Shown here one piece after another: positions 23,031 through 25,368 of a DNA stretch of 45,951 nt. Numbering within the stretch: position 1 is the first letter of the stretch; every line of letters begins with the position of its first letter. Origin of the DNA: an uncultured Planctomyces sp. (GTDB taxonomy: Bacteria > Planctomycetota > Planctomycetia > Planctomycetales > Planctomycetaceae); contig CALGTK010000085.1 in NCBI GenBank assembly GCA_937904325.1, positions 1 to 45,951 of the forward strand. The letters are read 5' to 3'. The position numbers were made by a program, and so were the translations under genes. The notes below the pieces were generated by a model. The model was given only the letters and a program-made list of their open reading frames with translations. It did not search any database and had not been told where the DNA came from.

Positions 23031-24806
23031 ATGTTCGATCTGATTGTGTCAGGACCTGACCATCGGCAGCGGATTCGGTTACCGCTGACGAGTAAAAAGA
23101 CTCTCACGATCGGGCGAGCAGATGATGCCGACGTACCTGTTGCCTGGGAGCCGATGCTTTCCCGGCAGCACGTCGAACTGGCGATTGCCGACGAGCAGGT
23201 TGCGGGACGGAAACTCGCCGCTGCTGCAAATCCTGTGTTCGTTTCGGGAATCGCGACTTCAGACTTTTCATTGCAGGATGGCGATGCATTCGTTGTCGGG
23301 GATACGGAGTTTCGACTGGCTGCTTCGCAGGCGGACGATTCAAGCCAGCTCGATCGGTTACTGGAGGAAATTCGTTTTGACGCTGGGCAGCTTCAGCAGA
23401 TTCCGTTCAGCGATGCCGACAAACGAATCGAAGTGCTGACGCATTTGCCAAGCGTCATCTGGGGAACTCGTACGGACGAAGATTTCTTTCTGCGAGTCGC
23501 TCAACTTCTGCTGGCAGGGATTCCTCGGGCGGAAGCAGTCGCGATTGTCGAACCGGTCGGCGACAATGTTGAGATCCTTCACTGGGATCGTCGCAACGAA
23601 ACCGAAGGCGGCGTACACCCGAGCAGTCGGCTTGTTCGCGAGGCAATCGTTGCGAGCAACCGCAGCGTGCTGCATGTCTGGGAGCCTGAAGTCGATAACG
23701 ACAATCCTCAATACACCGCGACGGGGGACTTCAACTGGGCGTTCTGCACGCCGGTGTCGGTCACCGGTCAGTCACGACGAGGTCTGTACGTGGCCGGTCA
23801 ACTGGATGCCGCTGCGTTCGCGTCCGGCGCCGATGAGCATAGCGCATTGCTGAGTGCAGACGTCCGTTTCACTGAACTGGTTTCTGAAATCGTTTCTTCG
23901 TTGAGAAGGCTCAGCCGACTGGAGCGTCACCAGGCCGGGCTGCGACAATTCTTTGCTCCACCGATTCTGGAAGCGCTTGGGCAGGATCTCGATACGGACA
24001 TTCTGGAGCCTCGCGAGTGTGATGTGACCGTCCTGTTTTGTGATCTGCGAGGATTCAGTCAACGTGCGGAAAACGCAGCTCATGATCTGACGGGATTGCT
24101 GAGCCGGGTCAGCGAAGCACTCGGATTAATGACCGAGCAGATTCTGCATTTCGGTGGCGTGACCGGAGACTTTCAAGGCGACGCCGCGTTGGGATTCTGG
24201 GGCTGGCCGTTTGCGACCGAGTCGGCTCCGTTGAACGCGTGCCGCGCGGCACTCGCCATTCGCAAAGCTTTCGAAACAGCATCGTCGACGCCAGGCCATA
24301 CTTTAGCTGATTTTGAAATGGGAATCGGGATCGCGCACGGTCGCGCGGTGGCTGGGAAAATCGGCACGTCAGAGCAAGTCAAAGTGACAGTCTTCGGTCC
24401 GGTCGTGAATCTGGCCAGCCGGTTGGAAACAATGACGACGCAACTACGAGTTCCCATCGTGCTGGATGAAGCAACCGCGGACCTGGTTCGAGAGAAGCTC
24501 GACCACCTGGAAGCTCGAACGCGACGCCTTGGTAAGGTGATTCCAGTCGGCATGGAGACTGCCGTCACTGTCAGTGAATTGCTGCCGCCGGAGCACGAGT
24601 ACCCGCTGCTCAAAGACGAACACCTTGCTCAATACGAAGCCGGAGTTGACTCATTCATCAAAGGTGACTGGGAAAGCGCCTGGCAGACGTTTCACAACAT
24701 GCCGGCGGGCGATCGTGCTCAGGATTTTCTGGCCATGCCCATCGTCCAGCACAACCGCCAGGCTCCGTCAGACTGGGACGGCATCATCCGACTGACGAGT
24801 AAATGA
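23031..24806 (+). CDS. FHA-GAF-type class III nucleotide cyclase
   Basis: A 591-residue signalling protein. ATG at 23031 is chosen for AAGGA 7 nt upstream and because the FHA domain begins at once. The FHA domain (about 1-100) has GR at 28-29 and LSRQH at 43-47, the phosphothreonine-binding residues. A GAF-like region follows (about 140-290). The class III cyclase domain (about 328-500) has the first metal Asp338 in VLFCDLRGFS, the second Asp384 in QGDAALGFWG, and transition-state Asn460 and Arg464 in VVNLASRLE. The usual adenine-selecting Lys before the second Asp appears to be Asp (GDFQGD where DKFIGD is typical), so nucleotide preference is uncertain. A TPR-like tail ends the protein. Confidence 0.9.
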   Translation: MFDLIVSGPDHRQRIRLPLTSKKTLTIGRADDADVPVAWEPMLSRQHVELAIADEQVAGRKLAAAANPVFVSGIATSDFSLQDGDAFVVGDTEFRLAASQADDSSQLDRLLEEIRFDAGQLQQIPFSDADKRIEVLTHLPSVIWGTRTDEDFFLRVAQLLLAGIPRAEAVAIVEPVGDNVEILHWDRRNETEGGVHPSSRLVREAIVASNRSVLHVWEPEVDNDNPQYTATGDFNWAFCTPVSVTGQSRRGLYVAGQLDAAAFASGADEHSALLSADVRFTELVSEIVSSLRRLSRLERHQAGLRQFFAPPILEALGQDLDTDILEPRECDVTVLFCDLRGFSQRAENAAHDLTGLLSRVSEALGLMTEQILHFGGVTGDFQGDAALGFWGWPFATESAPLNACRAALAIRKAFETASSTPGHTLADFEMGIGIAHGRAVAGKIGTSEQVKVTVFGPVVNLASRLETMTTQLRVPIVLDEATADLVREKLDHLEARTRRLGKVIPVGMETAVTVSELLPPEHEYPLLKDEHLAQYEAGVDSFIKGDWESAWQTFHNMPAGDRAQDFLAMPIVQHNRQAPSDWDGIIRLTSK

Positions 24807-24851
24807 TTATTGTGAAAACAGTCTTTCAACAAACGACGCACCGTCGGTTAT

Positions 24852-25187
24852 TTACACATCATACAGTTCAGTGAATCCACAACGCTGACAGGTGACAGCG
24901 ACAAATCTGTTCTTGTAAGAAAAGATTTGCTTGAGCATTTCGTCGGCGCCAACGTACAGCATTCGTACGTTCGCGGTTGTGTGCTCACACTTCGAACAGT
25001 TAAATTTTTCTTTCACAGTCTTTGCAAACGGTTCCGCCGTTGGGCCATATTCTGGATTCTCCTGACGGTCGCCAATGCCCACAGGTTTAAAATTCGGATC
25101 GCGCGTTCCATTCTGCGCTGTTCCACAGACCCATCAAACTTCGAAGTTATCTTCGATTGCTTCGGAGCAGCCTTCGCAATTCCACAT
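24852..25187 (-). CDS. Double zinc-ribbon protein with in-frame UGA at a Cys position
   Basis: From ATG at 25187 the frame reads MWNCEGCSEAIEDNFEV, then TGA at 25134-25136, then WVCGTAQNGTRDPNFKP, and stays open to TAA at 24852-24854 (111 codons with the UGA). Cys4, Cys7, codon 18 (UGA) and Cys21 give a CxxC...CxxC ribbon if UGA stands for Cys or Sec; the motif F-x-x-C-W-x-C is typical of such ribbons. The second ribbon (NCSKC...VTCQRCGFTELYD) is a known nucleic-acid-binding zinc-ribbon type. Without readthrough only a GTG-started 76-residue piece from 25082 remains. Explanations are a nonsense mutation, a sequence error, or UGA recoding. Confidence 0.6.
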
Positions 25188-25273
25188 AGCTGGACCACGC
25201 TAACGAACGTGTTCGAAATAAGTTCCCGTTTGCTGTGGCACACGACGCCGTCGCAGCAGCCTGGCGTGGACTG

Positions 25274-25292
25274 ACGACACGGAGTGTCGTCT
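25274..25292. other. Perfect 8-bp hairpin between two minus-strand genes
   Basis: GACGACAC-GGA-GTGTCGTC lies between the phosphoesterase gene (ends 25369) and the zinc-ribbon gene (begins 25187). There is no T-tract on either strand. It could be a processing site, a weak terminator or an operator for the zinc-ribbon gene. Confidence 0.35.
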
Positions 25293-25368
25293 CACGAGAG
25301 GGAAGTAATTCTGGATACCTCAAGACTTCAGGCAGTGTCTTCGTAGCTACCGGCAGAGCTGGCAGCAG

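Follow-up and report, generated by a model that had tools for sequence, protein, structure and literature searches.

The small minus-strand gene at 24807–25187 of the window, the whole 45,951-nucleotide stretch of planctomycete DNA that was analysed, is very probably a young nonsense pseudogene, an accessory double zinc-ribbon gene that carries two stops; the probabilities attached to this and to the other readings below are our judgements and not computed values. The frame runs on the minus strand from ATG 25187 to TAA 24854–24852 and is interrupted at codon 18 by TGA 25136–25134. Translation and comparison with relatives define an N-terminal mini-ribbon (25122–25187) with the ligand pattern C4-x2-C7...U18-x2-C21, in which the UGA takes the place of the third ligand, as the sequence-only reading had pointed out. 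The C-terminal ribbon (residues 64–110, 24858–24998) matches PF09855 (Zn_ribbon_13, DUF2082) with a score of 36.3 bits against a curated cut-off of 23 bits, and retains the four Cys of its CxxC...CxxC pattern. Besides residue 18, the seven other Cys of the ribbon frame are kept and the frame contains no frameshift, from which we infer that the loss of the gene is young. The evidence points to an ordinary broken gene.

All relatives that are readable at residue 18, including the protein of another genome of the genus (G003), proteins of distant planctomycetes and a Nostoc plasmid protein, have Cys at this position, so the first premature stop is aligned with a conserved Cys of the homologues. 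The relatives read MWxCxxCxxxIxDxFxxCWxCG, in agreement with the F-x-x-C-W-x-C context that had been assigned to the UGA from the sequence. No homologue with a UGA was found in other organisms, as none of the other family matches, from 170 family genomes and about 60 matches in 397 genomes of the class, contains a TGA. A direct scan of genome contigs with the protein revealed no relatives, nor did a scan of viral contigs with the alignment. Of the 48 single-base changes by which a stop could arise in the frame, eight fall on Cys (about one in six), and the position of the UGA alone is therefore weak evidence.

Our comparison reveals that the double-ribbon protein of G003 (L010/L214) shares with the window gene the same site and neighbourhood and the same two ribbons, with an identity of about 50–51%, but its codon 18 encodes Cys, its frame is free of internal stops, its tail is complete and its Shine-Dalgarno sequence is strong. 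The double-ribbon proteins of Nostoc plasmids (e.g., the WP_218651555.1 region) likewise combine MWxCxxC...CWxCG with a C-terminal ribbon at 30% identity, whereas they have Cys at the UGA position and an intact frame. In comparison with PF09855 proteins in general, which the window protein resembles in residues 64–110 with their four Cys, the window frame adds the N-terminal mini-ribbon with its UGA and has had its tail removed by a UAA.

This UAA is the second premature stop (24852–24854, codon 112). The frame had been described as otherwise intact, and it is indeed open apart from the TGA up to the TAA at 24852, but that TAA is itself premature. Where the window frame has TAA 24854–24852, the G003 protein runs on as ARITGSNSLWDKLF..., and the window frame continues beyond it with the 14 residues ITDGASFVERLFSQ (24810–24851), which align with ITGSNSLWDKLF of G003. 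The frame then reaches its original stop, TAA 24809–24807, which directly adjoins position 24806, where the convergent cyclase gene ends. Homology is found on both sides of each stop. The similarity of the tail to G003 is equalled by only 4 of 43308 random open stretches, and the matches at codon positions 1, 2 and 3 number 9, 7 and 4 of 12, respectively, concentrated at positions 1 and 2. When both stops are replaced by X and read through, PF09855 scores 40.6 instead of 36.3 bits, and the match ends at profile position 58 of 63 instead of 48. In addition, a profile search of 397 class genomes with an alignment of the host (G000) and G003 copies, in which the tail part rests on G003 alone, returned the window gene at 24810–25187 with one TGA and one TAA, and the G003 gene with neither. 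Because tails are also present in other members of the family (the Nostoc protein, G008 and G040), the loss of the tail is placed on the window's side.

Two stops thus lie inside a frame that is homologous to intact relatives, and the frame is not intact apart from a single possible selenocysteine codon, as TAA 24854–24852 precedes a homologous tail. A protein that ends 14 codons early could still function, and the UAA alone is no proof of gene death. The second stop also bears on whether the true codon is Cys and the TGA stems from a mistake in sequencing or assembly, or from a minority strain within the metagenome bin. The host genome is fragmented (7.97 Mb in 488 contigs) with 2.76% contamination, related members of the genus are likewise represented by MAGs, and TGA is one base away from a Cys codon; nevertheless, a single error would explain only one of the two in-frame stops, and the neighbouring genes are intact. 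We regard an error of this kind as quite unlikely.

Selenocysteine had been raised as another option. UGA18 would then be decoded by SelB and tRNA-Sec with the help of a non-standard SECIS, and the product would be a new selenoprotein of the zinc-ribbon type, with UxxC as a half-site and a C-terminus that is cut short. The search for selA, selB, selC and selD that had been suggested as a check found all four in the host genome. The tRNA-Sec (selC) scores 70.3 bits against a cut-off of 47 and is called SeC with anticodon tca by ARAGORN, and SelA, SelB and SelD score 497, 341 and 262 bits, respectively. Four of the five other genomes of the genus also contain selC, the fifth genome being 59% complete. 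The host can probably read UGA as selenocysteine in other genes. With the machinery present, its absence cannot be used to refute the selenocysteine reading, and the case is therefore decided on the gene itself.

In-frame TGA codons adjacent to Cys were sought in about a quarter of the genome (1.93 of 7.97 Mb), and six candidates were tested with Pfam. In two of them a known domain runs across the UGA. One is a probable AhpC/TSA deiodinase-like selenoprotein with the sequence FGCLTUPPF (G000 contig 191, TGA 13215, minus strand; L112:12073-13494 minus), which scores 65.6 bits with the NCBIfam deiodinase-related model, under its cut-off. The other is a probable DUF3179 selenoprotein with the UxxC motif TWUHLCHNG (G000 contig 374, TGA 83001, plus strand; L094:2653-3681 plus), which PF11376 matches across the UGA with 180.5 bits. 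A 2026 review (PMC13188914) counts both families among the bacterial selenoproteins. A further frame with the sequence TCPCE(UGA)YDLL (G000 contig 141, TGA 4602; L117:4402-4791 minus) shows a weak GFO_IDH_MocA match across the UGA and may be a selenoprotein, a pseudogene or a chance frame. The coding-potential scan for read-through frames was noisy, TAA and TAG yielding many such frames too, but the two selenoprotein genes came to light through it. The formate dehydrogenase-like and the two FmdB-like genes (G000 contigs 374, 268, 418 and 478) contain no in-frame TGA and were rejected as native selenocysteine controls; the use of selenocysteine in this genome is therefore not bound to formate dehydrogenase, its usual setting.

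A general reassignment of UGA was rejected, as UGA is the commonest stop in the genome sequence that was read, where it ends 200 of 486 long frames, which agrees with the earlier remark that UGA serves as a normal stop elsewhere. Leakiness of UGA is a general phenomenon, and low-level suppression, in which a near-cognate tRNA for Trp or another amino acid reads the codon, would draw on it; nothing specific to this site was found. Suppression would not restore the zinc ligand and would have to act on the commonest normal stop of the genome part read, and we consider it extremely improbable as an explanation of the gene.

The stretch directly after the UGA (25096–25133) had been put forward as a possible SECIS. 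Published criteria for a bacterial SECIS (bSECIS) comprise an apical loop of 3–9 nt with a G in its first two positions, a stem of 4–16 bp, a spacing of 16–37 nt and an MFE of –7.5 or lower (PMC13188914). In our implementation of these criteria, no bSECIS was found after the window UGA. The test is lenient, since 63% of 1500 random TGAs from the host genome pass it; the E. coli controls fdhF, fdnG and fdoG pass as well. Of the native genes, the one for DUF3179 passes by a clear margin (–10.0, loop CGUGU). The deiodinase-like gene has a hairpin with a GGUCU loop, as in E. coli fdhF, which alone is weak (–6.3 to –6.9), and it passes the implemented test via another, long-range fold only. The stem proposed at 25132–25096 does exist, with a bulge of 9 nt and a loop of 10 nt, but only in a suboptimal fold (–9.5 versus –11.7 kcal/mol). 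Furthermore, synonymous recodings that follow the codon usage of the genome fold into an equally or more stable structure in 72–74% of trials, indicating no sign of selection for structure after the UGA. The proposed SECIS thus lacks support. Because some genuine SECIS elements miss the published model (PMC13188914), this failure lowers the selenocysteine reading rather than eliminating it.

Several observations speak against a pseudogene, and the first and last of them also for selenocysteine. The UGA falls on a Cys of the relatives and would give a UxxC in a genome with the selenocysteine machinery and other selenoprotein genes; the residues around the UGA are kept together with the seven other Cys; and purifying selection acted in the past on the part behind the UGA. 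The window gene shares with bacterial UxxC selenoproteins, in which Sec replaces Cys in thiol proteins, a UGA at a cysteine of a CxxC and a host with the machinery. It differs from them, however, in that no SECIS and no relatives with UGA were found, in its second stop, and also in that its UGA lies at a structural zinc ligand and not at a redox site. Moreover, G003, which likewise has selC, has Cys at the same place, and the 2026 review of prokaryotic selenoproteins names no zinc ribbon: its main text does not contain the word 'ribbon' at all (PMC13188914). UAA cannot be selenocysteine, and the selenocysteine reading therefore leaves the second stop unexplained. Together with the accessory locus and weak start of the gene, described below, these points make decoding as selenocysteine very unlikely; if true, it would place selenocysteine at a structural zinc site and define a new class of bacterial selenoprotein. 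The selenocysteine option thus keeps its support from the machinery and from the other selenoprotein genes only, whereas the plain nonsense mutation by one base change, the alternative also named from the sequence, is supported by the second stop, by the lack of a model-type SECIS and of UGA-containing relatives, and by the accessory locus.

In only two of the six genomes of the genus, the host and G003, does the ribbon gene occur with a metallophosphoesterase gene on one side and an FHA/adenylate-cyclase gene on the other. In G002, G004 and G005 the metallophosphoesterase and cyclase genes stand end to end with no gene between them, indicating that the ribbon gene is dispensable, and G001 has other DNA at this site. 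The interval 24807–25368 of the window (also L214, L215, L216 and L219) is accordingly a presence/absence site within the genus. Between the host and G003, the metallophosphoesterase is 97% identical with a pS of 0.38, and the flanks of the ribbon gene have 86% DNA identity. The two copies of the ribbon gene are far more diverged, with saturated synonymous sites (pS 0.92, pN 0.33), and therefore separated before their flanks did; this pattern suggests that one of the copies probably came in by exchange or by a separate acquisition.

In the part of the gene behind the UGA, a pN of 0.38 against a pS of 0.96 reveals past purifying selection. As pN is well below pS, this part was translated during most of its past history, which says nothing of the present. 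The region in front of the start codon (25188–25207) is a weak ribosome-binding region, with a Shine-Dalgarno duplex of –2.7 kcal/mol compared with –7.2 kcal/mol in G003, the latter within the best 8% of genes. Present translation might alternatively begin behind the UGA, so that the C-terminal ribbon alone would be made from an internal start, e.g., GTG 25082, which opens a frame of 76 codons. Such a product would resemble relatives that consist of PF09855 only, and matches to the PF09855 part alone do occur in short frames of G008, G348 and G309. By eye, however, no recognisable ribosome-binding site precedes GTG 25082, and the product would still be without the tail cut off by the UAA, which renders an internal start highly improbable.

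In the preferred reading as a nonsense pseudogene, an accessory double zinc-ribbon gene (a MWxCxxC...CWxCG mini-ribbon joined to PF09855/DUF2082) would have been inactivated recently in this species. Translation would end at the UGA, predicting a peptide of 17 residues and no functional protein. The gene has a value as a warning, in that a Cys/UGA pair in a seemingly intact gene can belong to a pseudogene even in a genome with the selenocysteine machinery. In this situation, searching for homology past the annotated stop costs little and is a telling test for a pseudogene.

A perfect 8-bp palindrome, GACGACAC-TCC-GTGTCGTC, is located at 25273–25291 between the metallophosphoesterase and the ribbon gene and occurs as a single copy in the 1.93 Mb read. 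For the palindrome GACGACACTCCGTGTCGTC upstream of the ribbon gene, a dispersed repeat was rejected on the sequence read. A comparison of the window with a library of defence systems gave no match. Finally, the mini-ribbon of the N-terminus, MWxCxxC...CWxCG, is widespread among planctomycetes as a module that is joined to differing C-terminal parts (L010, L011–L013 and L220), its partners including YbjQ (PF01906) in the host genome (L018, G000 contig 44) and a ribbon on Nostoc plasmids.
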